IMG/VR virus record: IMGVR_UViG_3300025087_000094 | Span: 1-51,394 of that record | DNA length: 51,394 bases | Reading direction: 5' to 3' (one strand) | From: a virus | Shown: positions 3,973 to 34,284 of the stretch, in pieces | Position numbering within the stretch: the stretch's first letter is position 1 | How the letters are laid out: each line of letters starts with the position of its first letter | Position numbers and translations under genes: made by a program | Notes under the pieces: model-generated | What the model was told of the DNA's origin: nothing | The model's database searches: none | The model's input: only the letters and a program-made list of their open reading frames with translations

Positions 3973-4088
3973 GCAATGTTGCCTCCCCCGTACTGGGAGC
4001 AACAACCTACGGAGTGCAGTCTGATATCTGCAACCCCGAACTATATCTTACCCCGCGCGCGATGTCCGTGCGCGAGGATAGCAACTAG
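3969..4088 (+). CDS. 39-residue peptide containing the GVQSDICN motif
   Basis: GTG start overlapping the previous TGA; ends in TAG at 4086. Residues 15-22 read GVQSDICN, encoded by copy 1 of the repeated pseudoknot element. Related strings (GVQADICN, GVQSDTCN, GVQSYTCN) arise wherever that element occurs. The overlap supports translation, but the conservation may belong to the RNA rather than to the peptide. No function assigned. Confidence 0.4.
   Translation: MSNVASPVLGATTYGVQSDICNPELYLTPRAMSVREDSN
4010..4034 (+). promoter_or_regulatory. Putative pseudoknot element, copy 1 of 5
   Basis: Stem 1 pairs CGGA (4010-4013) with TCTG (4020-4023), using one G-U pair. The hairpin loop TGCAG (4015-4019) pairs with CTGCA (4028-4032), and ATAT links the two. 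This copy lies about 130 nt upstream of a tRNA and inside a possible 39-codon frame. Details of the family are in the findings. Confidence 0.6.
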
Positions 4089-4164
4089 CAACGAAAGGAA
4101 CCTGCGCGACGACGACTCCAAATAACTAAGACAAACCACGCCCGGAGTTCAGGCCGGGCACTAA

Positions 4165-4236
4165 GCCGCGCTCGTCTAGTGGTTAGGACACAGGACCCTC
4201 AATCCTGGTACACGAGTTCAATTCTCGTGCGCGGTG
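4165..4236 (+). tRNA. tRNA-Glu (anticodon CUC), unusual C33
   Basis: It folds as a cloverleaf: 7-bp acceptor (GCCGCGC with GCGCGGT, first pair G-U), D arm GTCT/GGAC with loop AGTGGTTA, anticodon stem CAGGA/TCCTG, and T arm ACGAG/CTCGT with loop TTCAATT. The loop CCCTCAA puts CUC at 34-36, reading GAG codons. Position 33 is C instead of the near-universal U. No CCA is encoded. A GCCCGG/CCGGGC hairpin lies at 4140-4159, and the next gene starts 14 nt after. Leu(CAA) was considered, but there is no long variable arm. Confidence 0.75.
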
Positions 4237-4249
4237 CTAAGGAGGACAT

Positions 4250-4462
4250 ATGCAAGACACCAATCCGCATGACTGGGTTAGCAGTAGTGGTCATTACCGC
4301 AGATACGTGTGCGGCAAGTGCGGCATGATTCGACACGATGACAGCACTCCAGGCTGGCCCTCATGGTCAACATACTACGACTCAAACGGGAACGGGCTAC
4401 CTCATACCGAGGAACCACCATGCGAGCGCTGGCAGCAACTCTCACTCCCCAACGTCAACTAA
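4250..4462 (+). CDS. Small zinc-ribbon-like protein
   Basis: A 70-residue protein behind a strong AAGGAGG ribosome site. YVCGKCGMIRHDD gives a CxxC pair and a later Cys (PPCERW), consistent with a small metal-binding protein. Aromatic-rich (YYDSNG, WPSWSTYY). Family not recognised. It sits between the tRNA and the clamp gene. Confidence 0.75.
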   Translation: MQDTNPHDWVSSSGHYRRYVCGKCGMIRHDDSTPGWPSWSTYYDSNGNGLPHTEEPPCERWQQLSLPNVN

Positions 4463-4488
4463 CCGACATCTAGGAGCCAATACACCCC

Positions 4489-5568
4489 ATGAAATTCACC
4501 ATCTCTCAGTCCGCGTTCTCCACCGCAATCAACCGCGTCGCGCGCATCGCGAATCGCAAGTCGACCATGCCAGTGCTCGCGAACGTCCTGCTCGTGGCAT
4601 CCGCGGACGGCGTATCGTTCACCACGAGCGACCTTCGCATGTACGCGCGCGCAACCGCTCCCGCGACCGTCGCCGCACCCGGAACCATCGCCGTCTCAGC
4701 CGCGGACCTTGCCGCGCGCGTGGCTCAACTCACGGGCGACGTCTCGGTCGTGCTGGACAAATCTCACCTCACACTCAAGGCCGGAACTCGTAAGTTCAAG
4801 CTCCAGACCATCGACGCGGAACACTTCCCGCCCTTCGCTACCATCGACGCAGCGGAGTCTTTCACGGTCGAATCCAAGCGCCTTGTCGGGCTCATCCGCG
4901 GCGCAATTTATGCGTCTTCTCTGGACGAAGCGCGCGCCTATCTCTCGCTTGTGCAGATTGAGAGCAAGGGCACGGGCGAACTCCTGGCGATGGCAACGGA
5001 CGGACACCGAATCGCCATGCGCTCGCTGCCTGTCACCACACCCGCCGTGAGCATCCCTATCCCGCGCAATGCCGCGCTTGAAGTCGTGCGTGTGCTGGAT
5101 TCTCTCGCGGGCTCAGTATCAGTCATGAGCGACGGCAAGCGCCTGCAACTCGACGGCGAAAACATCACATTCACCATGCAGCTTTCGGACGCGGTTCTGC
5201 CCGACGTTGCGGCAGTGCTATCCCAAGCCAAGGAAGGCGCGGCCGAAGTTCGAATCCCACGCGCGTCGCTGCTTTCGGCAATCAAGGCCGTGTCCGTGGC
5301 GAGCGATATCAAGAGCCCGGCCGTGTCACTCTCGTTCTCGGCGGGCACACTCCTCGTTAGCACCAAAGATGACGCTGGCAAGGACGAAGTCCCGTGCGAG
5401 TACGTTGGCGACGAGTTCAAGTTCTCGGTCAACCCACAATACTTCATCGAAACACTCAGCGCGTGCGAGGACGAAGAGGTGAGCATGCGAACGAACGCGC
5501 AAGGGTTGATGCCGGTATGGATGTCCGGCGATGGGTGGGAAGCGGTTGTGATGCCGCTTAGAAGCTAG
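4489..5568 (+). CDS. dnaN: DNA polymerase III beta subunit (sliding clamp)
   Basis: A 359-residue full-length beta clamp (bacterial clamps are about 365-380). It starts MKFTISQSAF and has the three-domain pattern: PVLANVLLVA in domain 1, the ATDGHRIA signature near residue 167, and a C-terminal VVMPLRS matching the usual PMRL-like end. It encircles DNA and tethers the replicative polymerase. No polymerase gene is visible in the window, so it may load a host or off-window polymerase (inference). GGAG precedes the ATG. Confidence 0.96.
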   Translation: MKFTISQSAFSTAINRVARIANRKSTMPVLANVLLVASADGVSFTTSDLRMYARATAPATVAAPGTIAVSAADLAARVAQLTGDVSVVLDKSHLTLKAGTRKFKLQTIDAEHFPPFATIDAAESFTVESKRLVGLIRGAIYASSLDEARAYLSLVQIESKGTGELLAMATDGHRIAMRSLPVTTPAVSIPIPRNAALEVVRVLDSLAGSVSVMSDGKRLQLDGENITFTMQLSDAVLPDVAAVLSQAKEGAAEVRIPRASLLSAIKAVSVASDIKSPAVSLSFSAGTLLVSTKDDAGKDEVPCEYVGDEFKFSVNPQYFIETLSACEDEEVSMRTNAQGLMPVWMSGDGWEAVVMPLRS

Positions 5569-5608
5569 TAGTAATAGGAGCAGGGATAGGACTAATAGGA
5601 GTAGGAAC

Positions 5609-5815
5609 ATGAACGTCGTAAAGATGCCCGTTTCGAATCACTCGTGGAGATGCATCGACACCGACGGCAAGCGATGCCCGCAACTTCGCACGTCTCACTT
5701 TGGAACTAGGTATATGTGTCACCCGTTCCACCCGGCAGCGTTGTTGCACGAACGCGATGGGTGCCTAGAGCGATGGCCTGAACGTGTATCGGGAGCTACG
5801 GAGGAGACCGAGTAG
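5609..5815 (+). CDS. Small Cys/His-containing protein, unknown
   Basis: A 68-residue protein with GGAGTAGGA upstream of the ATG. Cys and His residues are spaced through it (WRCIDTDGKRCPQL, YMCHPFHP, GCLERW), so metal binding is possible. Its TAG overlaps the GTG of the helicase by one base. Function unknown; it may be a helicase partner by position only. Confidence 0.65.
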   Translation: MNVVKMPVSNHSWRCIDTDGKRCPQLRTSHFGTRYMCHPFHPAALLHERDGCLERWPERVSGATEETE

Positions 5816-7215
5816 TGACCCAACCCCTCTACCCCATGCAGCAAGCCTGCGTTGACGCCGTTATCCGAGCGGCCAACGCGGGCAAGCGTGCGCCTCTCAT
5901 CGTAGCCCCGCCAGCGTTTGGGAAGACCAGAGTGGGGGTAGAGTTCCTTCACCGCACGGAAGCCAAAGGCAACCGCGGACTATGGGTCTGTCCCAGGCGC
6001 GAGCTAGCAGACCAGACGGTCGAATCGCTGTATCGCAACGGAGCCGAGCGAGTGTCCGTGCTACGCGGTAACGACTCTCGAGTTGACCCCGATGCGAGAA
6101 TCATCGTCGCGTCAATCCAAACTCTGCGCTCGCGCAAGATTCACCCAGACGCCAACGTAGTGGTATTCGACGAGGCTAGGCACTACGTAGCAAACGACTG
6201 GTTCACCATCGCGGACCACTACCGCAACGCCTACCGAATCGGGCTCGACGCTACCCCGCAGTCAACTACGGGCGCGGCAATGGGCAACCTATTCGATACC
6301 ATCATCGTTGGCGCGCTACCACAGCAACTCATCGCAGAAGGAAAGCTCGTTCCGTGTCGAGTCTTCGCGCCGCCAACTGCACAGAAACAACTCGCTAGTG
6401 ACCCAGCCGAAGCGTACTTGAGACTCGCACCGAATAGGCACGCTGTCATCTTCGCTGCGAGTGTGCAACACGCTGAGAACATCGCTGAGACTCTTCGTGT
6501 GCTAGGAGTGTCCGCGCGATGCATCACGGCTAAGACCAAGGAAGATGACCGTCGAGTCTGGACTGAAGAATTCAGGTCGGGTGCGGTCCGTGTCTTGGTT
6601 GGAATGGGCGTATTCGTTGAAGGGTTCGATGCGCCAATTGCTGACTGTGTGATTCTAGCTCGCCGCGTGTCCGCGCCCGGAACGCTTATCCAGATGTGCG
6701 GACGCGGCATGCGCCTGTATCCGGGCAAGGTCGACTGCCTAGTTCTGGACCTGTGCGGAGTCACCACCGTGGACGGGCTAGACATGCACCCCGACGACGA
6801 CGTAATCTACTCCCTAGAAGGCAAGCCAATCCGTAGCGCGCGCGAGAACCAGGAAGACGAATTTCACGTCCGGCAGTGCCCTGAGTGTGGTGCGTGCGTG
6901 CCATTCGCAGAGTTCCGACTAAGCGTGTGTCCCGAGTGCGGGTATCGTCGACCGGGTAGACCGGACCCGCGCATTCGTAAAGCCGCGCTTGAGGAACGTG
7001 ACAGGAAGTTGCGCGAGTCTCGTTCGGCTAAACTCGAGAACGGTTCGGCGTGTGTCGATTACCTAGTCGGACTCTGTAGCAAGCGCGGAAGCGTTCCGGT
7101 GCGAGGTTGGGAGTTCCAAGCGTTCTCAAAGAAGTACCACCGATTCCCGTACAAGGAAGAGCGGGAAGCGGCGCAACGATTACTAGCAGTTAGGGAGGCG
7201 CCAGCATATGCCTAA
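5815..7215 (+). CDS. SF2 DNA/RNA helicase with C-terminal zinc ribbon
   Basis: A 466-residue superfamily 2 helicase with a GTG start overlapping the previous stop. Visible motifs: Walker A PPAFGKTR (32-39), motif Ia-like WVCPRRELA, Walker B VVFDEARH, motif III-like LDATPQ, motif V EGFDAPIADC and motif VI-like QMCGRGMRLY. A four-Cys zinc ribbon (CPECGACV, then CPECGYRR) follows near residues 355-375. This resembles the ResIII/DEAD helicases common in phage replication clusters, with a probable role in DNA unwinding or remodelling using ATP. Confidence 0.92.
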   Translation: MTQPLYPMQQACVDAVIRAANAGKRAPLIVAPPAFGKTRVGVEFLHRTEAKGNRGLWVCPRRELADQTVESLYRNGAERVSVLRGNDSRVDPDARIIVASIQTLRSRKIHPDANVVVFDEARHYVANDWFTIADHYRNAYRIGLDATPQSTTGAAMGNLFDTIIVGALPQQLIAEGKLVPCRVFAPPTAQKQLASDPAEAYLRLAPNRHAVIFAASVQHAENIAETLRVLGVSARCITAKTKEDDRRVWTEEFRSGAVRVLVGMGVFVEGFDAPIADCVILARRVSAPGTLIQMCGRGMRLYPGKVDCLVLDLCGVTTVDGLDMHPDDDVIYSLEGKPIRSARENQEDEFHVRQCPECGACVPFAEFRLSVCPECGYRRPGRPDPRIRKAALEERDRKLRESRSAKLENGSACVDYLVGLCSKRGSVPVRGWEFQAFSKKYHRFPYKEEREAAQRLLAVREAPAYA

Positions 7216-7468
7216 TCAGCAGTCCGAGTCCACGTCACAGTCAGAATACACGTCCGAATCCACGTCCGGATTCGCGGAGTTCGTGGTCTACTGCCGACAC
7301 TCGCCCGAATTCATGCGCGAGTATGACCGGCTACGCGGTAGTTCGTTCACAAGCCGCGGCATGCGCGCACTAGCCGACTTGACGAGCTGCAAGCGCGAAC
7401 GTGACGAGGCCGAGCTTATGGCGTTCCTTGTGCAGTTGTGGGAGAGGGTGGGGAGGGGGAAACAATGA
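7208..7468 (+). CDS. Small hypothetical protein with Ser/Thr-rich N-terminus
   Basis: An 86-residue protein overlapping the helicase end by 8 bp, with GGGAGG upstream. The first 20 residues are Ser/Glu/Thr-rich and probably disordered. The rest is helical and charged (EYDRLRGSSF, KRERDEAELM). No family recognised. Its TGA overlaps the nuclease start as ATGA. Confidence 0.75.
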   Translation: MPNQQSESTSQSEYTSESTSGFAEFVVYCRHSPEFMREYDRLRGSSFTSRGMRALADLTSCKRERDEAELMAFLVQLWERVGRGKQ

Positions 7469-7929
7469 CTCACAATGAACTCTGCGAACGCGCTGCTAGA
7501 TGGTTGCAAAACACGCAGAAGTGCAGGCTCGTACTGCGCGAGGTAGTGTACTACGTAGTTGAGATTCCCGACGCGATTGGCTGGCGTTGGGGTTCGTCGA
7601 TTCTCGTGGAGTGCAAGACGTCTCGCACCGACTTCGCGGTAGACGCGAGGAAGCCGTTCCGTCACGCCAATGCCGGCATGGGGGAGAAGCGATACTTCAT
7701 GACCGAGCCTGGACTCGTGCGACCCGAGGAGTTGCCGATTGGATGGGGGTTGCTTGAGGTACATGAGAAGGCAGTACGAGTCGTGCGTGAAGCGGAATCA
7801 CGCACGCTGGAACCAACGTACTACCGAAACGAGTTGATGCTCATGACCCGCGGGCTCCGCATGGCGAACGGGCAGGATGAGCAGCCGGTCAAGAGGAGTG
7901 CGGCGTACGTGGGAGAGGCGGAACAATGA
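7465..7929 (+). CDS. MmcB-like PD-(D/E)XK nuclease-fold protein
   Basis: A 154-residue protein. ATG start overlapping the previous stop (ATGA), preceded by GGGGGA. The core reads IPDAIGWRW, then SILVECKTSRTDF, the PD...ECK layout of the PD-(D/E)XK fold, followed by GEKRYFMTEPGLV. This matches phage proteins usually annotated MmcB-like DNA repair nucleases. It probably cleaves or binds branched or damaged DNA. It is coupled to a second nuclease-fold gene downstream. Confidence 0.8.
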   Translation: MTHNELCERAARWLQNTQKCRLVLREVVYYVVEIPDAIGWRWGSSILVECKTSRTDFAVDARKPFRHANAGMGEKRYFMTEPGLVRPEELPIGWGLLEVHEKAVRVVREAESRTLEPTYYRNELMLMTRGLRMANGQDEQPVKRSAAYVGEAEQ

Positions 7930-8429
7930 CCCCCGAAACAAGAATCCTCAACGAGATACGCGCCGACCTTGGACGAGAGAAGGACCTCGTGCTATGGCGC
8001 CTGAATCAAGGCGCGGGCGTCATGGTCCCGCGCGACGCTCTTGACAGGCTCGCAAGTGTGCTTACACTAGCAAGCGCCTTGGCCGGAGGGAAACTGGCAT
8101 CGTTGCTGGACGAAGCGGGTGGAATATTACGTGATATTACCGAACGCAACTACAACCGATTCGGTCTGCCCAAGGGTGCGCCCGACCTTGTTGGCATTAT
8201 CGGCGCACAAGACACGACCGGTAGCGTGTGCGTGCCAGCCACGGGCATCGCGAGTGGTACGGGTCGCTGGGTTGGTATCGAGGTCAAGTCGGCAACTGGC
8301 AGACTCTCACCCGAGCAATCGCAATTCGGGCGCGTCATCGAATCCCGTGGTGGGTTCTGGACCATGGCGCGCTCGGTGACTCAGGCGCGCGAGTTCGTGG
8401 AGCGTTGCAGAGCAATCATTAGGAGGTAG
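7926..8429 (+). CDS. VRR-NUC-type nuclease
   Basis: A 167-residue protein, ATGA-coupled to the MmcB-like gene. The second half carries FGLPKGAPDLVGII, then GRWVGIEVKSATGRLSPEQ and a final FWTMARS. That is the G-x-PDL ... E-x-K ... Q arrangement of VRR-NUC nucleases, a family used by phages as structure-specific or Holliday-junction-like endonucleases. An insertion at about residues 40-75 (ASVLTLASALAGGKLAS) is not part of the core. Likely works with the adjacent helicases in recombination or repair. Confidence 0.85.
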   Translation: MTPETRILNEIRADLGREKDLVLWRLNQGAGVMVPRDALDRLASVLTLASALAGGKLASLLDEAGGILRDITERNYNRFGLPKGAPDLVGIIGAQDTTGSVCVPATGIASGTGRWVGIEVKSATGRLSPEQSQFGRVIESRGGFWTMARSVTQAREFVERCRAIIRR

Positions 8430-8430
8430 C

Positions 8431-9963
8431 GTGGAATCCGAAACTAGACGAGCGTATCAAGAATACCTGAACAGCAAGGCCCCGATTGTGCCGGACACAG
8501 GAATGCGTCCGGGCGCTGTGCGTGAATGCCTGTTCCCCTTTCAGCGCGACATCGTGCAATGGGCCTTGCAACGCGGCAGGGCAGCGTTGTTCGCGGACAC
8601 GGGACTTGGTAAGACCATCTCTCAGCTCGAATGGGCCTCGCAAGTATCCGGGCACACTCAGGCTCCAGTGCTGATTCTTGCCCCTCTCGCAGTCGGACAA
8701 CAGACCGCACGCGAGGCTCGTAAGTTCGGAATTGGTGGCGTGAAGTACTGCCGCGAGCAAACTGACATCGATTCGAACACTAGCATCGTGGTTACCAACT
8801 ACGAGCGATTGCATAAGTTCAATCAGGCAGAATTCAGGGGAATCGTGCTGGACGAATCCAGCGTACTGAAGTCCTTTATGGGCAAAACCAAGCGCACTCT
8901 AGTCTCGACGTTCAAGGGCATGCGGTTCAAGTTGGCGTGCACAGCTACACCCGCTCCCAATGACCATCTTGAACTCGGCAATCACGCGGAGTTCCTTGAC
9001 GTAATGGCATCCAACGAGATGATTGCCCGCTGGTTCATCAATGACACTTCCACCTTTGGCACATACCGTCTGAAGGGACACGCCGTTCGCTCGTACTGGG
9101 ACTGGGTGTCGACTTGGGCTCGCATGCTCGGGCTTCCGTCTGACATGGGCTACTCCGATGAGGGATTCGTCCTGCCCGAACTGCGCATGCGCAAGCACGT
9201 GGTCGAAGTTGACATCACACAGAACAGAGGCGATAAACTGTTCCGCATCCCAGAACTTTCCGCCACCAGCTACCACAAGGAAAAGCGCCTTACTGCCGAT
9301 TCGCGTTCGCGCAAGATTGCCGACTGCGTGGAGGCGGAACCGAATGAACGTTGGCTCATCTGGTGCGAGACAGACTACGAGGCGGATGCTCTCACGGCCG
9401 TCATTCCTAACGCCATTGAGGTGCGCGGCTCTGACAGCACGGAGCGCAAGGAACTGGCCGCGTTGTGGTTCGCCGGTGACGTCTGCGAGGAGTGTTCCGA
9501 AGAGTGCGCAAAGCTCGTGAGGGGCAAGACGTCCGCTGCCAATCCGGAGTTGGGGGTGTGCTCGAATTGCGGCAAGACCCTGCACCCGGCCATCATGGTT
9601 AGCAAGTCCGGAATCTTTGGGCTCGGACTCAACTTCCAAAAGTGCGCGCGCGTGGCATTCGTTGGCGCTGGGTACTCATACGAATCGTACTACCAGTCAA
9701 TACGGCGTTGCTGGCGGTTCGGGCAGACGCGACCCGTTGACGTGCATATCGCACTGGCATCCACGGAGCGCGAAGTATGGGACGTTCTCATGCGCAAGGC
9801 GGCAGACCATGAGCGTATGAAGTCCGCCATGTTCGAAGCCATGCGACGGGCTCAAGGCGTGGACAGGAAACGTCGAGTACTATACAACCCACAACAAGTC
9901 ATGCGCCTGCCTGAATGGCTTTTCGACCACGGCACTGATGACAGCACAGAGGAGGAATCTTGA
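8431..9963 (+). CDS. SNF2-like SF2 helicase/ATPase
   Basis: A 510-residue protein, GTG start with AGGAGG just upstream. Motifs: Walker A DTGLGKT (56-62), TNYERLHKF, Walker B VLDESS, TATPAPND and the C-terminal SIRRCWRFGQTRPV motif VI typical of SNF2/DEAD phage helicases. A Cys cluster (CEECSEEC, then CSNCGK) is inserted between motifs IV and V and may bind zinc. Probable dsDNA translocase acting with the nucleases and methyltransferase next to it. Confidence 0.93.
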   Translation: MESETRRAYQEYLNSKAPIVPDTGMRPGAVRECLFPFQRDIVQWALQRGRAALFADTGLGKTISQLEWASQVSGHTQAPVLILAPLAVGQQTAREARKFGIGGVKYCREQTDIDSNTSIVVTNYERLHKFNQAEFRGIVLDESSVLKSFMGKTKRTLVSTFKGMRFKLACTATPAPNDHLELGNHAEFLDVMASNEMIARWFINDTSTFGTYRLKGHAVRSYWDWVSTWARMLGLPSDMGYSDEGFVLPELRMRKHVVEVDITQNRGDKLFRIPELSATSYHKEKRLTADSRSRKIADCVEAEPNERWLIWCETDYEADALTAVIPNAIEVRGSDSTERKELAALWFAGDVCEECSEECAKLVRGKTSAANPELGVCSNCGKTLHPAIMVSKSGIFGLGLNFQKCARVAFVGAGYSYESYYQSIRRCWRFGQTRPVDVHIALASTEREVWDVLMRKAADHERMKSAMFEAMRRAQGVDRKRRVLYNPQQVMRLPEWLFDHGTDDSTEEES

Positions 9964-10964
9964 ACACCATTCCCAACCTAGACACTACCGATACCACCGA
10001 CACTGCCGACACTACAGACACCACCGACACCATCCCAGCGGCTGGAGTGCAGTGCATGAAGGCAGAACACGGCAACGGGTGGATTCTGTACCATGGCGAC
10101 TGCGTGGAAGTGGCAAGACAGCTACCTAGCAACTCTGTCGACTTGGCCGTGTTTTCTCCTCCGTTCTCGAATCTGTATATCTACTCAGACTCCGAACGCG
10201 ACATGGGCAACTGCGTGGACGATTCCGAGTTCTTCGAAGGGTATGCCCATCTCTTGAACGAGCTATTCCGCATCATGAGACCCGGCCGTATCGTGTCCGT
10301 GCACTGCAAGGACTTGGTGAACTACAAGAACCGAGACGGCGCGGCGGGACTTAGGGACTTCCCCGGCGAGATTATCCGCGCGCACCTTGACGCTGGATTC
10401 ACCTACCACTCGCGCGTCACCATCTGGAAAGACCCCGTACTCGAGATGCAGCGCACGAAGGCGCACGGACTGCTGTATAAGCAACTGCGAAAGGACTCCT
10501 CGTTCTCGCGCCAGGGACTTGCCGAATACGTCGTATCGTTTCGCAAGTGGGCAGATGAGGAGGGAACGGACGTCGAACCCGTCACGCACTCGAAAGACGA
10601 CTTCCCGCTTGACCGGTGGCAGCAATGGGCATCCCCTGTTTGGATGGATTCGTGTCAGACCAAGGTGCTAAACGTGCAAAAGGCAAGAGAGGACAAAGAT
10701 GAGAAGCACCTTTGCCCCCTCAGCCTGGACATCATCGAGCGCTGCGTCGGACTGTGGTCTAACCCTGACGAGGTAGTCTTCTCCCCCTTCGCTGGCATCG
10801 GCTCGGAAGGATATGGCGCACTCCAAGCCGGACGCAAGTTCGTGGGAGTCGAACTCAAGGAAAGTTACTTCAACGATGCAGTCAAGAACCTGCGCCTAGT
10901 CGAGCCCGGAGCACGCAATCAACAACTCTCCCTTTTCGAATCCACACCAGGAGGCAACCAGTGA
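9960..10964 (+). CDS. Site-specific DNA methyltransferase (N6-adenine or N4-cytosine type)
   Basis: A 334-residue protein. A TTG start at 9960 has AGGAGG four bases upstream and overlaps the helicase stop. A Thr/Asp-repeat leader (TTDTTDT) precedes the catalytic domain; an ATG at 10056 is an alternative start. Catalytic motif IV is FSPPFS (66-69). Motif I, FAGIGSEG, is at 277-284, near the end: the order of a beta-class amino-methyltransferase. It transfers methyl from SAM to DNA, perhaps protecting phage DNA from host restriction. No cognate endonuclease is visible. Confidence 0.93.
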   Translation: MNTIPNLDTTDTTDTADTTDTTDTIPAAGVQCMKAEHGNGWILYHGDCVEVARQLPSNSVDLAVFSPPFSNLYIYSDSERDMGNCVDDSEFFEGYAHLLNELFRIMRPGRIVSVHCKDLVNYKNRDGAAGLRDFPGEIIRAHLDAGFTYHSRVTIWKDPVLEMQRTKAHGLLYKQLRKDSSFSRQGLAEYVVSFRKWADEEGTDVEPVTHSKDDFPLDRWQQWASPVWMDSCQTKVLNVQKAREDKDEKHLCPLSLDIIERCVGLWSNPDEVVFSPFAGIGSEGYGALQAGRKFVGVELKESYFNDAVKNLRLVEPGARNQQLSLFESTPGGNQ

Positions 10965-11781: not shown

Positions 11782-11939
11782 CCAAGAAAAGACTAGCTCG
11801 TGTCAGAGCGCTAGGCACGAAGGAACACCCCATAACCACACAGTGGCCCATCGAGATTGACGTTGGGGACACGGTTCACTTCGTTACTCTCAAATGGGCT
11901 ACGAGGCTTAGGGATGACCTAATCTCGGCAATTAGATAG
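11778..11939 (+). CDS. Small hypothetical protein (53 residues)
   Basis: ATG at 11778 overlaps the DUF1937 stop (ATGA); ends at TAG 11937. Basic N-terminus (MTKKRLARVRALG), then IEIDVGDTVHFVTLKW, which looks like a beta-rich core. Family unknown. The stop-start coupling is the main reason to call it. Confidence 0.6.
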   Translation: MTKKRLARVRALGTKEHPITTQWPIEIDVGDTVHFVTLKWATRLRDDLISAIR

Positions 11940-11985
11940 TATCACCTGGAACATCTTCAGGCATCTATATCCAAGGCTGCCAGCG

Positions 11986-22698: not shown

Positions 22699-23805
22699 AT
22701 GACGATGCTAAACGACGAACAGATTGGACAGATGACGGAAGACGAGGCGAAGGCGCTGGTGCGGAAACTCAAGCGCCGCCTCGGGAAGGCAAGCCCTTCC
22801 AAGTTGCGCAAGATTGTTCCCGCGTTCGATGACCCGCGCGAGGAACTTCGCAGCCTTGCCAAGCTCCACGCGGACATTATTCGACGCAGCGTGGCGCTGT
22901 CCAACGGCGCGTGTGACAAGACTCTGCGAGACGGGCCGCGCAAGGGAGAGACAATCGAGTGCACGCTACCGAACGACTTGCAGCGCGCGCAGCAAGCCAT
23001 GGCCGACGAGTTCAAGGAGAACGCCAAGAGCTACGAGCTGACGATGGCAAAGACTTTGGAGAAGTTCGAAGTCTATCGCATCTTCTTGGACAAGGTGTTC
23101 GGGTGTGGCGTGGTCACGTCCGCTTACCTGCTTGGGCTCATTGACATCCGGCGGGAAGGACTGAAGCCGTCCGGTGTCCGTCGCTACTGCGGGTATGCCG
23201 TGGTCGATGGCAAGGCAGAACGCCGCGGCAAGCGCGATGGTTGGCTACCTGCTTGGGTGTGCAAGAATCGCGATCCTCACCCTCTCAAGAAGCCGACAGA
23301 CCCGGAAGACATCCGCGTTGTCGATGGGCAGGAACAGTGGTTCGTCGCGCTCCCTATGGCATACAACGCTGCACTAAAAACACGGCTCTGGCAGATGATG
23401 TCCGCCATGTTGAAGAACGCGGCGAAGTGCACGAGCGATGCCCCCTACGGCGTTACGAACAAGTATCTCGACAGGTGGTACGACGCCAAGCATGCAGCCT
23501 TGACGGTCCAGGGGATGAAGCCGGGCAAGGCACAGTCCAAGGGCATGCGCAAGGCCATTGACCTGTTCTTGCTGGACCTCTACACAATCTGGCGCGCCAT
23601 CGAAGGGCTGCCGATCTGGCCGTCCTACTACGAGCAGCAGCGCGGCTACATGCACGGCGGCGCACCTGCTGACCAGGGTTCGCGCACTTACACGGTAGCC
23701 GCCGCACTTCAATTCGTCGGCAACTTCAAAACTGTTCCGTTGCAGACTGCGCGCGAGTGGGGAGCGGCTGCCATGCTGGACACTCCCGACGACTCGGACT
23801 CCTGA
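22699..23805 (+). CDS. IS110 C-terminal-domain-like DNA-binding protein
   Basis: A 368-residue protein. FGCGVVTSAYLLGLIDIRRE, then PSGVRRYCGYAVVDGK and a later helix (YNAALKTRLWQMMSAMLKN) resemble the helix-hairpin-helix Transposase_20 domain of IS110/IS116 transposases. The N-terminal DEDD (RuvC-like) half and the conserved Ser of that family are not visible, so transposition is unlikely. N-terminal 150 residues are helical. It may be a structure-specific DNA-binding protein used in recombination or packaging. The 37-bp array is directly upstream. The following 164 bp (23806-23969) hold no gene I can see. Confidence 0.6.
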   Translation: MTMLNDEQIGQMTEDEAKALVRKLKRRLGKASPSKLRKIVPAFDDPREELRSLAKLHADIIRRSVALSNGACDKTLRDGPRKGETIECTLPNDLQRAQQAMADEFKENAKSYELTMAKTLEKFEVYRIFLDKVFGCGVVTSAYLLGLIDIRREGLKPSGVRRYCGYAVVDGKAERRGKRDGWLPAWVCKNRDPHPLKKPTDPEDIRVVDGQEQWFVALPMAYNAALKTRLWQMMSAMLKNAAKCTSDAPYGVTNKYLDRWYDAKHAALTVQGMKPGKAQSKGMRKAIDLFLLDLYTIWRAIEGLPIWPSYYEQQRGYMHGGAPADQGSRTYTVAAALQFVGNFKTVPLQTAREWGAAAMLDTPDDSDS

Positions 23806-26207: not shown

Positions 26208-26243
26208 CGCACACCAGCGTGGCCCTTACAGGTAAGGAACACG

Positions 26244-27791: not shown

Positions 27792-27836
27792 ACGAGGCGT
27801 GCGGGCCAATCCGCAACGCGCGAAGGAGATTAGAAC

Positions 27837-28259
27837 ATGGCCGCACGTACTACCGCGTATCCTACCGCTTTCGATTCGTTCCCTGGTGTCCCCGACGTTG
27901 GGAACCATGACCCCATCAACGCCGTTGCCCAGGCCACTGTCGCACTCGAGAAGGTGGTTGGACTGGTACCCGCCACTGCTAGCACCGCGCTGACTCTTGC
28001 CACTGCTACCACGGTGTACCCGTCTGGCGGTTCGGTGCGCACGATTAGCTCGGTGAATATCGCCGCTGGTGTGACCATTACCGTGACTGCCGCGGGTGCG
28101 ACTCCTGGACAGTATCTTACGATTGCCAAGACCGCGACCGGCGCGACTGGCACCGTGACGATTGACGGGCACGCCTTCACCACGCACAAGAAGTTCAACG
28201 CGCAGCTTCGGTTCATCAATACCGCGTGGAAGATGATCGGCTACTACGAGTACGCTTGA
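27837..28259 (+). CDS. Structural protein, beta-rich (head-associated)
   Basis: A 140-residue protein with AAGGAG upstream. N-terminus FDSFPGVPDVGNHDPINAVA resembles the N-terminal stretch of some phage fibre proteins. The rest is Ala/Thr/Gly-rich beta (GVTITVTAAGATPGQYLTI) ending WKMIGYYEYA, a capsid-decoration or fibre-like barrel. Position between portal and MuF gene suggests a head surface protein (inference). Confidence 0.65.
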   Translation: MAARTTAYPTAFDSFPGVPDVGNHDPINAVAQATVALEKVVGLVPATASTALTLATATTVYPSGGSVRTISSVNIAAGVTITVTAAGATPGQYLTIAKTATGATGTVTIDGHAFTTHKKFNAQLRFINTAWKMIGYYEYA

Positions 28260-28268
28260 TTCAAAACA

Positions 28269-28293
28269 CGGAGTGCAGTCCGATACCTGCAAT
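28269..28293 (+). promoter_or_regulatory. Putative pseudoknot element, copy 2 of 5
   Basis: Stem 1 CGGA/TCCG (28269-28272 with 28279-28282), stem 2 TGCAG/CTGCA (28274-28278 with 28287-28291), linker ATAC. It ends 19 nt before the start of the MuF-protease-scaffold gene and takes up most of that intergenic gap. Confidence 0.65.
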
Positions 28294-28312
28294 ATAGACA
28301 GCGGATATCCGA

Positions 28313-30235
28313 ATGACCCTAAACACGCGCCTCGCTAAGCTAGGCGAGAAGCACGCGCGTGAACTCGACGACGTAATCGAGCACTACGACGCTGAGATAA
28401 CCAAGGCGTATGAACGAGCCGCGTCGCATTCGGGCGAGGCTCGGTTCACGCACCTTCGCGATTCGCTCACGGCCACGGTCCAAGCGGCGCGCACGGTCGC
28501 GAACGAACTCGGTTCGCAGCACCTCATGGCAGAGATTCGCGAAGTGCTTGGTACGCACACGCACCTTCTCGCGATTGACCTTGGCGCGCATCCTCGCAAG
28601 TCGGATATCACGCAGTACGTAACGGACGCGGTTGAACTAGCCAAGTCGAAAGCAGATTCGGAAGGCATCGAGTCGACCGCGTATCGGGGACAGACGATAG
28701 TCGAATCCGAAGCGGTTCTGTCGTACGACTCGGCTCGTAAGGATGGCGAACGTACGCTGTCCAAGATGTCCGACGAGCGTGCTAGGCGTCTTGGATTCCA
28801 GGCGGCACGCTCGGTACCCAGGGGAGTCAAGCGCGACGCTGTGGGGCTATCCACACGCGACGACGGCGGCTTTATCCCGGTTCTCGGGAAGGTTTGGAGC
28901 GCGATAAACGACAAGCGCACGTGTCAGATATGCGCGGATAAGGACGGCGAGCTTGGACTGCTCGCTCTTGATTTCGGTGGCGACTCTCCTCCGGTGCATG
29001 CGCGCTGTCGATGCGTCACGCACTTGTGGGCTGTTGCCTGGGTGAAAGGCGAGCGGGACATGCCGATTCCTACGAGAGATAAACCATACAGCTACGACGT
29101 CTCGCTGGACGTGCGCGAGGCCGAAGTAGACTCGTACCAGCGATGCATCCGTGGGTGTGTGGCTAGCGACGAGTCTCTTGACTCGCATGGCACTGTGTTG
29201 CTCGCGTCCGGTTGGGACCTGTCGCGGTATGCGAAAAACCCGGTACTGAAGTGGGGACACCACTGTTTCGGGAACCCCGCGCAGCCTGAAGACATCATGG
29301 GTACCGCGCCAAGTCGTGTTGACGGCTCGCGTCTTGTGACTGACCTTCAGTTCTCGCCCAAGGGACTGAACCCGAAAGCTGACATGGTATTCGACCAAGT
29401 GTCGTCGGGAATCGTCAGGGGGCTTAGCGTCGAGTTCAAGCCTCTCGAGTACCATATCGAAAAGGACGAGAAGGGCGACGAGACGGTAATCGTAGACCGC
29501 GCGATGCTGGCGGCTATCAGCATCGTGCCGGTACCGTCGAATCCGAACGCGCTTACTCGGGCTATGCTTGAGGGCGAAGGGGAACAGGACGACGTGCGTA
29601 AAACACCAAGTAAGGCTCTAGTTGTTGAGCCAGAGGATACCCGCGCAACGCATGATGCGGGCGCAAACGAAGGCGCGGCACGGCCGGCCAAGGAGAAAAC
29701 CATGTCTGACCAGGATACCACCGTTGGTCTGCCCGCCTCGATTGCTGCATTGCTCGGGGTAGACAATGAGGAGGCCGCTCGCGGAGCGATTAGCACCCTC
29801 ATGCTCAAGATTGACAACGCTGAGAAGCGTGCAATCGAATCCGAGACTCGCGCGGTCAAGGCCGAAAGCGACCTGAAGGCGCGCGTTGACGCGGAAGTGA
29901 CCGCGGAAGTCGATGGGCTTATCAAGTCCAAACGCATCGATGAGAGCAAGCGCGAGGCCGCGCTGACGCTGGCGCGCGTGAACATCGGAGCGTTTCGCGA
30001 GATGTATCCCGCGCAGGCTCCCGCCGCTGCCGAAGGCCCGAAGACGGAAGTGCTGGAGCGGCATATCTCCAAGTCTCCCAACCCGCGTGTGACGGAGAAG
30101 CCCAGTCGTCCTATCGCTGAGATGCAGCGCGAGATGCAGGACAAGATTGCTGAGTTGAAGAAGGCCGGACTCAACCACGAAGAGGCGCATATCCGCGCTC
30201 TTGAGTATTTCATGACTCGCCCCGAGGCGAAGTAA
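28313..30235 (+). CDS. MuF minor head protein fused to HK97-type protease and scaffold
   Basis: A 640-residue polyprotein. Residues 1-180 are helical; KVWSAINDKRTCQICADKDG to PPVHARCRCV (about 195-245) is the MuF-type Cys/His motif. Residues 265-430 resemble the S78 prohead protease: GCVASDESLDSHGTVLLASG, KWGHH (H316/H317) and RGLSVEF (S372) as likely catalytic His and Ser. The C-terminal part from 464 is a charged coiled-coil scaffold. The protease would mature the head and cleave itself free. The start lacks a clear ribosome site; the pseudoknot lies just upstream. Confidence 0.88.
   Translation: MTLNTRLAKLGEKHARELDDVIEHYDAEITKAYERAASHSGEARFTHLRDSLTATVQAARTVANELGSQHLMAEIREVLGTHTHLLAIDLGAHPRKSDITQYVTDAVELAKSKADSEGIESTAYRGQTIVESEAVLSYDSARKDGERTLSKMSDERARRLGFQAARSVPRGVKRDAVGLSTRDDGGFIPVLGKVWSAINDKRTCQICADKDGELGLLALDFGGDSPPVHARCRCVTHLWAVAWVKGERDMPIPTRDKPYSYDVSLDVREAEVDSYQRCIRGCVASDESLDSHGTVLLASGWDLSRYAKNPVLKWGHHCFGNPAQPEDIMGTAPSRVDGSRLVTDLQFSPKGLNPKADMVFDQVSSGIVRGLSVEFKPLEYHIEKDEKGDETVIVDRAMLAAISIVPVPSNPNALTRAMLEGEGEQDDVRKTPSKALVVEPEDTRATHDAGANEGAARPAKEKTMSDQDTTVGLPASIAALLGVDNEEAARGAISTLMLKIDNAEKRAIESETRAVKAESDLKARVDAEVTAEVDGLIKSKRIDESKREAALTLARVNIGAFREMYPAQAPAAAEGPKTEVLERHISKSPNPRVTEKPSRPIAEMQREMQDKIAELKKAGLNHEEAHIRALEYFMTRPEAK
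29702..30235 (+). CDS. Nested scaffold protein from an internal start
   Basis: In frame within the 640-residue gene. AAGGAG sits seven bases before the ATG at 29702, giving a 177-residue product (MSDQDTTVGLPASIAALLG, then helical AVKAESDLKARVDAEVTAEV). This is the arrangement of lambda C/Nu3 and similar protease-scaffold pairs, where most scaffold comes from the internal start. It would guide capsid assembly and be degraded. Confidence 0.65.
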   Translation: MSDQDTTVGLPASIAALLGVDNEEAARGAISTLMLKIDNAEKRAIESETRAVKAESDLKARVDAEVTAEVDGLIKSKRIDESKREAALTLARVNIGAFREMYPAQAPAAAEGPKTEVLERHISKSPNPRVTEKPSRPIAEMQREMQDKIAELKKAGLNHEEAHIRALEYFMTRPEAK

Positions 30236-30246
30236 GGAGCAACCAG

Positions 30247-30705
30247 ATGAGCACGAACGTTGCTGTTGACTCCGCTGAGAGGCGGAGCACTGTTACCTGC
30301 TACAACGTCGGGACCAACGGAGCCATCAAGAATGGCGACTCTGTCCAGTTCCGAGTTACTGGCGGAACCAATCCGCTTATCATCGCCGCGAATCTCGCTG
30401 GCGCAACGGCTGGCACTGTCACCTATGCGGGTGGCGTCGCCCTCGCCTCTGCTGCCACTGGCGGCACGTTTGCGTGCGTGGTTCTGGGCGCTGCGCGCGT
30501 GACTGCGAATGCCACGTTTGCTCACCTGCGTACCCCGCTGGGTCTGACTGTTGGCACTGCCGGTATTCGCGGCAGAGTCACGGCGATTACTCCCGCGGCT
30601 ACGGCCGGGACTATCGCCTACACGCACTTGGGGTACAACCTCACGTGCACGACTGCCGCTGGGCAGGAAATGCTCATCATGGTCAATCCGTCTCCGCTTC
30701 GGTAA
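30247..30705 (+). CDS. Capsid decoration-like protein
   Basis: A 152-residue protein with AAGGAGC upstream. Nearly all beta and small residues (AKNGDSVQFRVTGG-like opening, GTFACVVLGAARVTANATFA, GIRGRVTAITPAATAGT). It resembles head-decoration or DUF2190-type proteins that precede the capsid gene. It probably stabilises the head after maturation (inference by position). Confidence 0.65.
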   Translation: MSTNVAVDSAERRSTVTCYNVGTNGAIKNGDSVQFRVTGGTNPLIIAANLAGATAGTVTYAGGVALASAATGGTFACVVLGAARVTANATFAHLRTPLGLTVGTAGIRGRVTAITPAATAGTIAYTHLGYNLTCTTAAGQEMLIMVNPSPLR

Positions 30706-30732
30706 CCGGAAGACCACAGAAAGGATACTGCA

Positions 30733-31881
30733 ATGGATTCCGATTTGGTCAAGGTTCAGGATGTCGGCGGCGGTGGCGCGTACACTATCGATGAGTACAA
30801 CCACACAGTCCGCTATCACAACGGCAAGGTCGTGGACTTCCGCGAGGTGGACTGGTCTCTGATTCAGGACCAGCTTGACCCGTGGGCGAAGCGAGATATC
30901 ACTGTCAGCAACGTGCACGTGAATACCGCGCTGGCGAACTTCCTTGTCGGCTACGGCTCGCAGATGCAGGACGCGATTGCGGACATCGTGTGCCCGCCGT
31001 TCCTGGTTGACAAGGCCAGCAACACATTCTTCACCGTCAGTGCGAACGATAAGTTCCGCGATGTCGACTCGACGCTTGCGAGCGAGAGCGACCCGGTGAA
31101 GGAAGTCGGCCCGAACATGTCGACTGACACGTACAACACCGTTGCATACGGTCTTGGTACGTTCATTCCGCAGGGCGTTGTCGCGAACGCCGACGCGGTT
31201 GTCATGCCCATGGTTCGCGCTCTGTCGCGTGTCATGAACGCCATGACGATTGCTCGCGAGAAGCGTGTCTATTCGGCGCTCACGAACTCGACCACGTTTA
31301 CTGGGTACACCACCACGCTTACGTCGTCGAACTTCTGGGATACCTACGCTGGTACCCCGACCGCTTCGGACCCGGTTGCGAACATCTACACCGCAATGGA
31401 GTCTGCCCTCAAGCCTATCACGCATATCGCCATGAGCGAGAAGACGTGGCACAGGTTCGTTGGCAACCCGAACGTTGCGAAGTACTCCATCTACGGTTCG
31501 ACCGACGCGCAGGCGTTGGCGCGCGACCCGCAGGAACTGGCGCGACGGCTCGGTTTGGACGGCGTTCAGTTCGTCATCTCCAAGATGCGTACTGAGGCAA
31601 CCACGGCGGGCGTTACCACGAAGTCCTATCTATGGGCTGACTACTGCACCTTGCTGTCGATTCCGCCCGGTGCTGACACGAACGGTGAGCAAGTTCCGAC
31701 CGCACGCACCTTCCGGTGGGACAAGAACGGAGCCGCGCGTCAGTTCGGCGGATTCCGTATCCGCGAGTGGGAAGACCCGAGCCGCGGTCAGGACGGTGGG
31801 CGCAAGCTCGCCGTGCTGTGCAATGACCACGAAAAGGTGGTTGCCGCTCCGACCGGTCACGTCATCATCAACTGCTGGTGA
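30733..31881 (+). CDS. Major capsid protein
   Basis: A 382-residue protein, AAAGG upstream. Features of HK97-fold capsids: N-terminal arm, YGSQMQDAIADIVCPPFLVD, TIAREKRVYSALTNSTTFTG, then SEKTWHRFVGNPNVAKYSIY and LGLDGVQFVISK, ending AAPTGHVIINCW. It directly follows scaffold and decoration genes and precedes a strong terminator, as expected for the most abundant virion protein. Confidence 0.88.
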   Translation: MDSDLVKVQDVGGGGAYTIDEYNHTVRYHNGKVVDFREVDWSLIQDQLDPWAKRDITVSNVHVNTALANFLVGYGSQMQDAIADIVCPPFLVDKASNTFFTVSANDKFRDVDSTLASESDPVKEVGPNMSTDTYNTVAYGLGTFIPQGVVANADAVVMPMVRALSRVMNAMTIAREKRVYSALTNSTTFTGYTTTLTSSNFWDTYAGTPTASDPVANIYTAMESALKPITHIAMSEKTWHRFVGNPNVAKYSIYGSTDAQALARDPQELARRLGLDGVQFVISKMRTEATTAGVTTKSYLWADYCTLLSIPPGADTNGEQVPTARTFRWDKNGAARQFGGFRIREWEDPSRGQDGGRKLAVLCNDHEKVVAAPTGHVIINCW

Positions 31882-31899
31882 TACTAGCACGGATAGACT

Positions 31900-31962
31900 C
31901 GCTAGCCCGTAGCATATATGGCTGCTTTCGTAGCCTATAGTGCCACGGGCTAGCGTTTCTTC
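31900..31962 (+). terminator. Terminator after the capsid gene
   Basis: An 11-bp stem CGCTAGCCCGT/ACGGGCTAGCG (31900-31910 with 31945-31955) followed by TTTCTT. Between the arms a second hairpin GGCTGC/GTAGCC is nested. Probably partial, limiting read-through so that the capsid gene is made in excess of later genes. Confidence 0.8.
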
Positions 31963-31976
31963 CGCATCTAGACCAA

Positions 31977-32001
31977 CGGCGTGCAGGCCGATATCTGCAA
32001 C
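31977..32001 (+). promoter_or_regulatory. Putative pseudoknot element, copy 3 of 5
   Basis: Stem 1 CGGC/GCCG (31977-31980 with 31987-31990), stem 2 TGCAG/CTGCA (31982-31986 with 31995-31999), linker ATAT. It lies 15 nt after the terminator, at the predicted 5' region of the next transcript, 30 nt before the first ATG with a ribosome site. Confidence 0.65.
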
Positions 32002-32031
32002 CGTATCTCACGCATGGGAGGGAGAGGCACA

Positions 32032-32418
32032 ATGGCACGACACTCATACGGCAGGCCCGCATATTCTGCGAGTATCGAAACTGCCGATACACAGGAGGGA
32101 AGCGACATGGGTCAGGATACCACCAAGATTCCGAACACGATTCCTGAGCAGGCAGAGGCGCCTAAGCCCGCGCCCGCTCCTAGTCACCTTCGCTACGTTG
32201 CTGTCCGCGGCTGCAACTACGTTACCAACGTGGGGCAGAACAAGCACGCGGAACGTGGCGAGGAGATGAAGGATATTAAGCCCAGTGACGCAAAGGAACT
32301 GTGCGAACTTCATGCAGCGCTTGCTTGTGAACCTCGAGTGATTGAGGCGCTTCACACGCTTAGCAGCCTCCCTCCCGAGGACGTGGCTATCGTCAAGTCC
32401 GCGATGGGTCTGCTCTAA
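32032..32418 (+). CDS. Hypothetical head-region protein
   Basis: Two in-frame starts have ribosome sites: ATG 32032 (GGAGAGG) and ATG 32107 (GGAGGG, 103 residues). I give the longer, 128 residues, without strong preference. Conserved-looking core HLRYVAVRGCNYVTNVGQNK, then helical C-terminus (DAKELCELHAALACEPRVIEAL). The location right after the capsid gene suggests a minor head protein. Not recognised. Confidence 0.65.
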   Translation: MARHSYGRPAYSASIETADTQEGSDMGQDTTKIPNTIPEQAEAPKPAPAPSHLRYVAVRGCNYVTNVGQNKHAERGEEMKDIKPSDAKELCELHAALACEPRVIEALHTLSSLPPEDVAIVKSAMGLL

Positions 32419-32472
32419 TCCGAATAACGTGCAGTCGGGTGTGGTCCACGCTCTGTCGTGGAAGGGGTCACG

Positions 32473-32952
32473 ATGGGTAGCATCATCTCACAGGCTGGCG
32501 GGTCGGGTGCAACGGGCGACCTAACACTCGCCTTGGGCAATACCCAGCTCGCCATTCTGTGCGGTGAGGCTACGGGCGGAACCATCTCTTCGTCAGTCGT
32601 TACGTGGGTGATTCAGAACGCAGAAGCGGAAGCGTGGTCCTTGCTAGGACCGGGATTCACTGTCCCGTTCGCCACTGCCGCTACCGAGCGAATCGTCAAG
32701 GGCGCGACGACGGATATCGCGGTGCAATGGCTGTATAAGCGCAAGCCAGACTTTCGCACTCAGACCGGCGACACTCCAGTCCAGAAGCAATACGATGCGG
32801 CAGTCAAGGTGCTACAGGACATTCGCTCGGGCGAGCGTTCGATGGACGACGACTCGCAAAGCGCGCTATCCGGTGGAGTGGTGTACTCGACCATAACGAA
32901 CTTCATCACAGACGATAACGAGGGCTCGAGTTCGCCTAGTGGCGGGTTCTAA
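32473..32952 (+). CDS. Head-completion protein, Mu gp36-like (DUF1320)
   Basis: A 159-residue protein; AAGGGG before the ATG. VVTWVIQNAEAEAWSLLG, ATTDIAVQWLYKRKPDF and YDAAVKVLQDIRSGE follow the pattern of DUF1320 (Mu gp36), an adaptor on the portal to which the neck binds. Acidic, Ser-rich C-terminus. Its TAA overlaps the next ATG (TAATG). Confidence 0.82.
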   Translation: MGSIISQAGGSGATGDLTLALGNTQLAILCGEATGGTISSSVVTWVIQNAEAEAWSLLGPGFTVPFATAATERIVKGATTDIAVQWLYKRKPDFRTQTGDTPVQKQYDAAVKVLQDIRSGERSMDDDSQSALSGGVVYSTITNFITDDNEGSSSPSGGF

Positions 32953-32999
32953 TGCACCATATTACCACAGTCGGCGTGCAGGCCGATATCTGCAACTAA
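32952..32999 (+). CDS. 15-residue micro-ORF carrying GVQADICN
   Basis: ATG overlaps the upstream stop (TAATG) and its own TAA overlaps the next gene's ATG (TAATG). It reads MHHITTVGVQADICN and spans pseudoknot copy 4. Such double coupling implies ribosomes cross it to reach the next gene, which has no ribosome site of its own. Peptide function unknown; it may serve only to open the structure. Confidence 0.4.
   Translation: MHHITTVGVQADICN
32972..32996 (+). promoter_or_regulatory. Putative pseudoknot element, copy 4 of 5
   Basis: Stem 1 CGGC/GCCG (32972-32975 with 32982-32985), stem 2 TGCAG/CTGCA (32977-32981 with 32990-32994), linker ATAT. It ends two bases before the next start codon, inside the 15-codon micro-ORF. 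The 25 bases are identical to copy 3. Confidence 0.65.
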
Positions 33000-33463
33000 T
33001 GCTGGTCAGGATAGAGGCTAACAAGTTCCTCGAATCGCTCAAACAGACGAGAGAGAATATTGACTCCTACGGTCTTGTAGCGTGGAATCGCGCGCTAGAG
33101 GATTCGAAGGAAGCCATGCACCAGCACGGCTACCAGAACAAGACCGGGAAACTGACGGCCTCGATGAAGTCGAAGTCCTCATCGAAAAAGCAGTTTGCGT
33201 GGACTGGCACCATCACAATCAGCGCCACGTACGCGCAGTGGGTGGACCAAGGCACCGGTATCTACGGCCCGCTTCACATGCCAATCCGCCCGCGGGTTGC
33301 GCCCTTCCTTCGTTTCTTTTGGGACAAGACCGGGCGCATCGAATACATGCGTAGCGTGCGCGGGATGAAGCCTGCCAAGTTCTCGCAGATGGCAATCGAG
33401 CGGTTCCTAGCCGTGGCGCATTCCTACGTTCAGGCGGCAGTGGATTCGGCTTCTCGAAGCTAA
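32999..33463 (+). CDS. Neck / head-tail connector protein (gp10-like)
   Basis: A 154-residue protein from the ATG at 32999. The HK97-gp10/Mu gpG-like pattern is visible: helical N-terminus, TGKLTASMKSKSSSKKQF, ISATYAQWVDQGTGIYGP and a C-terminal helix (MAIERFLAVAHSYVQAAV). It links head to tail at completion. No Shine-Dalgarno sequence precedes it; translation may be coupled through the micro-ORF. Confidence 0.8.
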   Translation: MLVRIEANKFLESLKQTRENIDSYGLVAWNRALEDSKEAMHQHGYQNKTGKLTASMKSKSSSKKQFAWTGTITISATYAQWVDQGTGIYGPLHMPIRPRVAPFLRFFWDKTGRIEYMRSVRGMKPAKFSQMAIERFLAVAHSYVQAAVDSASRS

Positions 33464-33476
33464 CAGGAGATAACCC

Positions 33477-34250
33477 GTGACCTATCGCTACGATAAGATG
33501 GGCGCGGTGACTGTCCCTGCCACGGGCTCGGTCGCAACGGGTGGCACGCTAATCACGCTGCTAGACCCTACGATTGAATACCTGCTAGCCGCGTTCAAAG
33601 ACGTAATCAACGGCAAACTCGGTAGCGTGTGGGCGGCTGGTGCGTCGCAGATATCGCGCACGGGTTCGCCTGTCGTTGGGACGTACAATCAAGAGCCGCT
33701 TCCGATGCTGGCAAAGCGCACGTGGCAGTGGCCTGCGCTGTTCATGTGGCGTCAGAAAGAGCGTCTGTTCAAGCGCACACAGGTCTATCGCTGTGCGGAG
33801 TCGGAAGGTAAACTACTGTATGTCTTGCCTCCGCTACCGTATGAGACAGCGAAGCGCCTGCACCCGATTCGTGTTGGCGTGCGAACGGCTCTAGACCTGT
33901 TCATCGAGCAGTATGGCGACCCTGGCGTGAACAGCGGCGCTGACCCGATGGCGGCAAAGAACATCGAGTCATTCGAGTTCGTGTCAGACGAATACGCTTG
34001 GCTAGCGGGCGACGCAATCGAGTCGCCGCACGCTATGCTAGAGTTCACGTGGCGCATGCGTGAGCGGCAGTCCTTCGTGGATGCGAACTACTCCCCGCTG
34101 GAGTACGTGATTACCACGGTAGAAGCCGCAGACGAGCGACCGGCTACGAGCGCAACGTCTGGCGTGGACGTGTCTACTATGTACTTCCCTATTCCTGGTA
34201 GCACTGCGGCTAGCGGGTTCACTCCTGGGTTTAGCGCTGGATTCCACTAG
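33477..34250 (+). CDS. Head-tail or tail-completion protein, unassigned
   Basis: A 257-residue protein, GTG start with AGGAGA upstream. Segments such as EYLLAAFKDVINGKLGSVWA, QWPALFMWRQKERLFKRTQ and PPLPYETAKRLHPIRVGV are not from a family I can name. Position between neck and sheath suggests tail terminator or neck. Confidence 0.65.
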   Translation: MTYRYDKMGAVTVPATGSVATGGTLITLLDPTIEYLLAAFKDVINGKLGSVWAAGASQISRTGSPVVGTYNQEPLPMLAKRTWQWPALFMWRQKERLFKRTQVYRCAESEGKLLYVLPPLPYETAKRLHPIRVGVRTALDLFIEQYGDPGVNSGADPMAAKNIESFEFVSDEYAWLAGDAIESPHAMLEFTWRMRERQSFVDANYSPLEYVITTVEAADERPATSATSGVDVSTMYFPIPGSTAASGFTPGFSAGFH

Positions 34251-34259
34251 GTGCCATAA

Positions 34260-34284
34260 AGGAGTGCAGTCCTATACCTGCAAC
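34260..34284 (+). promoter_or_regulatory. Putative pseudoknot element, copy 5 of 5
   Basis: Stem 1 AGGA/TCCT (34260-34263 with 34270-34273): here the outer pair is A-T where the others have C-G, a compensatory change. Stem 2 TGCAG/CTGCA (34265-34269 with 34278-34282), linker ATAC. It fills the gap between genes and ends 8 nt before the ATG at 34293. AAAGGAG overlaps stem 1, so the only SD-like sequence is inside the structure. Confidence 0.65.

Follow-up and report, generated by a model that had tools for sequence, protein, structure and literature searches.

The five 25-nt elements dispersed through the window, a 51,394-nt stretch of viral DNA (IMG/VR record IMGVR_UViG_3300025087_000094), are very probably, with a probability of about 95%, solitary copies of the crRNA handle that makes up the 3' end of a type V CRISPR repeat. 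The same 25 nt constitute the 3' part of the 36-nt repeats in CRISPR arrays on other phage contigs. The sequence-only reading of this DNA had found no described family that fits, a statement that no longer stands, since RNAs of this kind, type V crRNA handles, have been described. By analogy with the Racrs (RNA anti-CRISPRs), we give slightly better than even odds to the possibility that the units act as decoy RNA aimed at the Cas12-like effectors of other phages.

The five copies listed in the earlier reading were all confirmed, each on the + strand and with the core GTGCAG-N4-ATAY-CTGCA intact (Table 1). Allowing up to two mismatches, the core had five matches in the window, a number reached in none of 100 dinucleotide shuffles (mean 0.20). 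A covariance model based on 22 copies, the five window units among them, returned exactly these five from the window, with E values of 8e-12 to 7e-10, and no sixth copy, the next best match having an E value of about 1. Among all stretches of the window with the same pseudoknot geometry, TGCAG was the only stem 2 that stood out (five occurrences). The units were at least 995 nt apart, overlapped no predicted gene and were thus intergenic, and lay outside any array; a conserved peptide was ruled out as the cause of the conservation, because the units sit between genes. The 5' flank of unit 3, GACCAA, resembles the AACCAA of the full repeats.

Table 1. The five units and the genes that follow them in the window
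Feature	Positions	Strand	Sequence	Description
Unit 1	4010..4034	+	CGGA-G-TGCAG-TCTG-ATAT-CTGCA-AC	predicted hairpin before, tRNA-Glu after (130 nt downstream); no ORF start adjoining
tRNA-Glu (ctc)	4165..4237	+		3' of unit 1
Unit 2	28269..28293	+	CGGA-G-TGCAG-TCCG-ATAC-CTGCA-AT	19 nt 5' of head morphogenesis/protease ORF
ORF after unit 2	28313..30235	+		head morphogenesis / prohead protease-like
Unit 3	31977..32001	+	CGGC-G-TGCAG-GCCG-ATAT-CTGCA-AC	30 nt 5' of ORF 32032
ORF after unit 3	32032..32418	+		128 aa; no PHROG match
Unit 4	32972..32996	+	CGGC-G-TGCAG-GCCG-ATAT-CTGCA-AC	2 nt 5' of ATG at 32999
ORF after unit 4	32999..33463	+		154 aa; no PHROG match
Unit 5	34260..34284	+	AGGA-G-TGCAG-TCCT-ATAC-CTGCA-AC	8 nt 5' of ATG at 34293
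ORF after unit 5	34293..34967	+		224 aa; no PHROG match

The element consists of the 5' strand of stem 1, one nucleotide, the 5' strand of stem 2 (the pseudoknot helix), the 3' strand of stem 1, a 4-nt loop, the 3' strand of stem 2 and a terminal AC. Counted back from the repeat end, stem 1 occupies positions -25 to -22 and -15 to -12, the single G is at -21, stem 2 occupies -20 to -16 and -7 to -3, the loop extends from -11 to -8, and A and C are at -2 and -1. Stem 1 was paired in all five window units, in the variants originally described (CGGA/TCTG with a G-U pair, CGGA/TCCG, CGGC/GCCG twice and AGGA/TCCT), with the outer pair changing from C-G to A-T and the inner pair from A-T to C-G. Over the 22 distinct copies, 98.9% of the stem 1 cells were paired and there were 11 double changes, a result obtained in 0 of 500 shuffles; the inner pair occurred as A-U, C-G, U-A, G-C and U-G, and the pairing was lost when the partners were slid. 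Loci L017, L018, L019 and L022, as well as L025 and L026, are copies of the same viruses and hence not independent.

The first search pattern fixed stem 2, so a second scan was carried out in which stem 2 was left free. Two contigs, L155 and L247, had TGCGG/CCGCA instead of TGCAG/CTGCA, a compensatory change, with stem 1 paired as well, and both matched a covariance model built without them (E about 5e-7). The scan was expected to give 0.28 chance matches with both helices paired, and a chance origin of exactly TGCGG/CCGCA twice is far less likely than that. The covariation of stem 1, the compensatory pair in stem 2 and the covariance model together bear out the proposal that an H-type pseudoknot has been selected as RNA. 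These observations also bear on the idea that the interrupted palindrome TGCAG-N8-CTGCA is a DNA operator or a promoter for a phage RNA polymerase; the dyad does lie 5' of late genes, but a DNA dyad has no need of two interlocked helices that covary, and elsewhere this sequence is organized in CRISPR arrays adjoining cas12-like genes, which leaves this explanation extremely improbable. The element is like the pseudoknot operators and riboswitches in Rfam in being a small H-type pseudoknot near start codons and unlike them in also having copies away from start codons; a riboswitch or other known Rfam pseudoknot family was rejected, as the tRNA family gave the only Rfam matches in the window.

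When IMG/VR was scanned with the pattern of the element, matches came from unrelated viral contigs. Regular arrays were present on four of them, with 10 copies of the repeat in G001, four in G014, three in G011 and four in G015. The repeats were 36 nt long, for example CCAACAACCAACGGAGTGCAGTCCGTCACCTGCAAC or GAAACCATCAACGGCGTGCAGGCCGTCAACTGCAAC, and were separated by differing spacers of approximately 34-41 nt, one of which occurred twice in G015. A fifth contig, G003, had five looser copies, two of them 5' and three 3' of a single gene, the cas12-like gene. Immediately 5' of the repeats, and in the same orientation, G001, G003 and G014 had a Cas12/TnpB-like gene and G011 a fragment of one. 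The G015 array begins at the contig edge, so that every array with its upstream flank present adjoins an effector gene. Regular repeats, unique spacers and a cas12-type neighbor, the marks of a type V repeat, were thus found together in G001, G014 and G011, and loosely in G003. Moreover, the pseudoknot scaffold terminates the repeat and adjoins the guide; its topology is that published for Cas12m2, and both stems covary. In G001, the final spacer of the array agrees with the neighboring gene at 27 of 28 positions, and in G003 the second spacer is similar to the leader of a gene in that phage.

A pattern in which the linker was partly fixed, applied to the genomes of 84,980 species, turned up no bacterial array of this repeat, and phages are thus the only known source of the matching system. 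The four bacterial matches (L013-L016) were single, without an array and with stem 1 broken in three of them, and were dismissed as chance, as were L012 and L020, which scored weakly with the covariance model. Annotated phages and plasmids gave only partial chance matches to the repeat. A search of the main texts of papers for the core letters brought up no CRISPR-system paper with a description of the repeat. Comparison of the spacers with annotated phages, and of the spacers and unit flanks with the collected loci, disclosed no convincing outside target.

The effector genes upstream of the arrays encode a Cas12f/TnpB zinc-ribbon domain. Full effectors are encoded on three contigs, G001, G003 and G014; the three lengths are 434, 447 and 466 aa, and the identity to the first effector is 38-46%. 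A profile-guided scan of IMG/VR gave no further member of this close group, the remaining 74 matches being TnpB-like proteins of low identity. An AlphaFold model of the effector (pLDDT 79.5) matched Cas12f, TnpB and Cas12m structures with a probability of 1.00. By sequence as well as by fold, the effectors are assigned to the Cas12/TnpB superfamily, with Cas12f, Cas12u4 and TnpB as the closest matches. Inspection of the alignment showed that all three RuvC acidic residues are kept in G001 and G003, while in G014 the first and last are replaced by S and R, respectively, so that one effector of the group appears to lack a working nuclease site. Membership in Cas12m (V-U1) was rejected, the PADLOC Cas12u1 model giving E values of only 0.025, 4e-5 and 4e-4, far poorer than the scores of the Cas12f, Cas12u4 and TnpB models. 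A TnpB of the IS200/IS605 type, whose omegaRNA guide is encoded once, at the right end of the transposon, was likewise rejected from the layout 3' of the gene, where arrays of 36-nt repeats and spacers follow.

The closest structural parallel considered was Cas12m2 of type V-M (PMC10442227), which also has a 36-nt repeat with an H-type pseudoknot beside a stem and a 4-nt loop. In the Cas12m2 scaffold, G(-23) pairs with A(-2), C(-22) to C(-17) pair with G(-8) to G(-3) to form the pseudoknot, which is stacked on the stem, and A(-24) is flipped out (PMC10442227); from the text of that paper we infer the placement of the stem strands and of the loop at -12 to -9. The two scaffolds share a G opposite A(-2) and a pseudoknot 3' strand that ends at -3. 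They differ in that the pseudoknot of the element has 5 bp rather than 6 and has no flipped-out A before the G, and Cas12m (Cas12u1) models give the effectors weak scores (E no better than 4e-5).

Single units with no array and no detected effector were found in the window and in at least seven other viruses, judged from the contigs as sequenced (the contigs without a detected effector are G000, G002, G004, G005, G009, G012, G016 and G017, with G016 and G017 searched with two models only). In the window, tblastn and HMM searches for an effector gave nothing above chance, and a gene may lie beyond the window ends; the ORF at 22699-23805, considered as a candidate, is IS110-like and not Cas12/TnpB. 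The units were on the strand of the neighboring genes in all contigs covered by this check (those other than G016 and G017). Three units lie in tRNA clusters or beside a tRNA: window unit 1, L007 (tRNA-Lys) and L008 (21 tRNA genes; G003). The remaining units are mostly in short gaps 5' of ORFs. It could be argued that the single units are relics, the leftover repeats of lost arrays whose function is gone, since these phages between them have arrays, mini-arrays and single units. This is very unlikely given that the five dispersed window copies have stem 1 paired in each despite their base differences and that there is no degenerate sixth copy.

A location 2 to 30 nt before gene starts, as first reported for four of the copies, was verified for units 2-5 (Table 1) and, together with the similar location of most solitary units elsewhere, raises the possibility of a cis-acting operator. 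A Cas12-like effector, encoded by the phage itself, a co-infecting phage or the host, would bind the pseudoknot in the mRNA leader and block or tune translation or stability, as RNA-binding proteins do when controlling ligand-like mRNAs. Two repeats in G003 precede the cas12-like gene itself, as might be expected of an operator. The earlier claim that some of these genes lack a normal ribosome site was correct insofar as three of the four ORFs have no Shine-Dalgarno sequence, but the bias relative to the other ORF starts of the window (12 of 47 without one) did not reach significance (Fisher p = 0.07). In several cases a good Shine-Dalgarno sequence lies between unit and start codon, the units in tRNA clusters (window unit 1 and L007) have no ORF start, no effector was found in the window, and the nearness to start codons is largely a consequence of gene gaps of 42-53 nt. 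We consider the operator unlikely. For the same reasons (the tRNA-cluster copies, L008 included, the intact Shine-Dalgarno sequences and the short gaps), translation control, one of the roles suggested at the outset, is unsupported as a general role, while another, the binding of a phage protein, agrees with recognition by an effector.

For an RNA of this shape, these phages suggest a single ligand, the Cas12-like effector. If the units are decoys, as we favor, they would be transcribed within phage mRNAs and tRNA transcripts, and the transcribed unit would fold into the crRNA pseudoknot and be bound by the effector. An effector so bound would carry as its guide only the adjacent sequence of the phage itself and no selected spacer. 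Since this sequence, like every array spacer, is preceded by the repeat end CTGCAAC, the phage genome should escape attack. The units would then titrate the Cas12-like effectors that rival phages, prophages or the host supply, and the late mRNAs and tRNA transcripts would be abundant carriers of the decoy. One contig with an effector (G003) and one with only a unit (G004) come from the same metagenome and have a 25-mer in common, CGGAGTGCAGTCCGATACCTGCAAC, a co-occurrence that fits, and does not prove, competition within one community. Two observations count against the decoy reading: four of the five window units are directly 5' of start codons, a position that a decoy does not need, and G003 has both an effector and a lone unit.

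Alternatively, each unit could serve as a guide-bearing mini-crRNA, its transcript being processed by an effector acting in trans that uses the approximately 20 nt after the unit against related phages having the same gene start, no repeat and possibly a valid PAM, thereby excluding competitors. The match of the last G001 spacer to the neighboring gene, as if it came from a relative, is in accord with this scheme. On the other hand, none of the window flanks had a target in the collected loci, and a search of IMG/VR with the major capsid protein found no relatives of the window phage; comparison of the window loci with annotated phages also gave no DNA match. A role of this kind is quite unlikely.

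The decoys that we propose would resemble the Racrs (Camara-Wilpert et al. 2023, PMC10651486), which are single, intergenic CRISPR repeats of phages with no array or cas genes and are effective against several CRISPR types, V-A included. The search for Racrs began from 17,823 known repeats (PMC10651486), and would overlook any repeat outside that set. The window phage differs in having five copies, most of them directly 5' of ORFs or in tRNA clusters, and in that only other phages are known to carry the matching system and the inhibition is putative. A landfill survey (PMC12607003) includes, in the part considered here, a TnpB/Cas12-like protein of 400-480 aa beside an array on a viral contig; the repeat and its solitary copies are not described in that part, and the comparison is one of descriptions only. 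Solitary repeat units, Racrs and compact Cas12-like systems on phages were thus already known, the last from two reports (PMC11656645, PMC12607003). Novel, as far as could be checked, are this repeat itself, its association with the effector group, its dispersal in five copies through one genome and what appears to be its restriction to phages.

Taken a step further, and tentatively, the units may belong to an RNA arms race between phages, in which repeat decoys in late mRNAs and tRNA transcripts answer miniature Cas12-like systems borne by other phages, the messages doubling as CRISPR sponges and perhaps being controlled by Cas12; the repeat and the effectors would then make up a compact type V group, so far undescribed in combination with dispersed decoys. 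An unexplained small pseudoknot has become a testable case of CRISPR repeat mimicry against phage-carried CRISPR systems, and the pattern and covariance model provide a means of finding, by sequence, a group of miniature Cas12-like effectors carried by phages. The dispersed units embedded in mRNAs differ from the published Racrs and raise the question of whether ordinary phage messages may act as anti-CRISPR RNAs.

The last spacer of the L045 array, carried by phage contig G001 with a Cas12/TnpB-like effector gene, matched the adjoining P-loop ATPase gene of the same phage over 28 nt with one mismatch. This array lies upstream of the ATPase gene, just as a solitary unit, a single CRISPR-repeat handle without an array, lies upstream of the Sak4-like gene of L018. 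Another solitary unit is located amid the 21 tRNA genes that L008, on a 149-kb phage contig, carries within 7.5 kb.

In the window, a hairpin of very high stability with a T-rich tail was found 3' of the major capsid gene, and unit 3 follows shortly downstream. A Shine-Dalgarno sequence was absent before three ORFs that follow units (starts 28313, 32999 and 34293) and present before most window ORFs (p = 0.07). Apart from the main finding, the window encodes a 368-aa relative of IS110-type transposases, matching PDB 9mty (E 2.6e-4) and PHROG 4285.

Coordinates of the features
Feature	Location	Position
Array spacer and ATPase gene match	L045, 3300044608_002757	392-419, 593-632
Solitary unit and Sak4-like annealing protein gene	L018	1365-2333
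tRNA genes	L008, 3300009149_000012	225-7682
Hairpin	window	31901-31955 (+)
IS110-like ORF	window	22699-23805 (+)
Cas12-like effector	L053, 3300014494_000009	3995-5392

Two of the three RuvC catalytic positions of the L053 effector, a G014 protein, are substituted (S and R), and because of these replacements its sequence suggests a binding-only effector resembling Cas12m.
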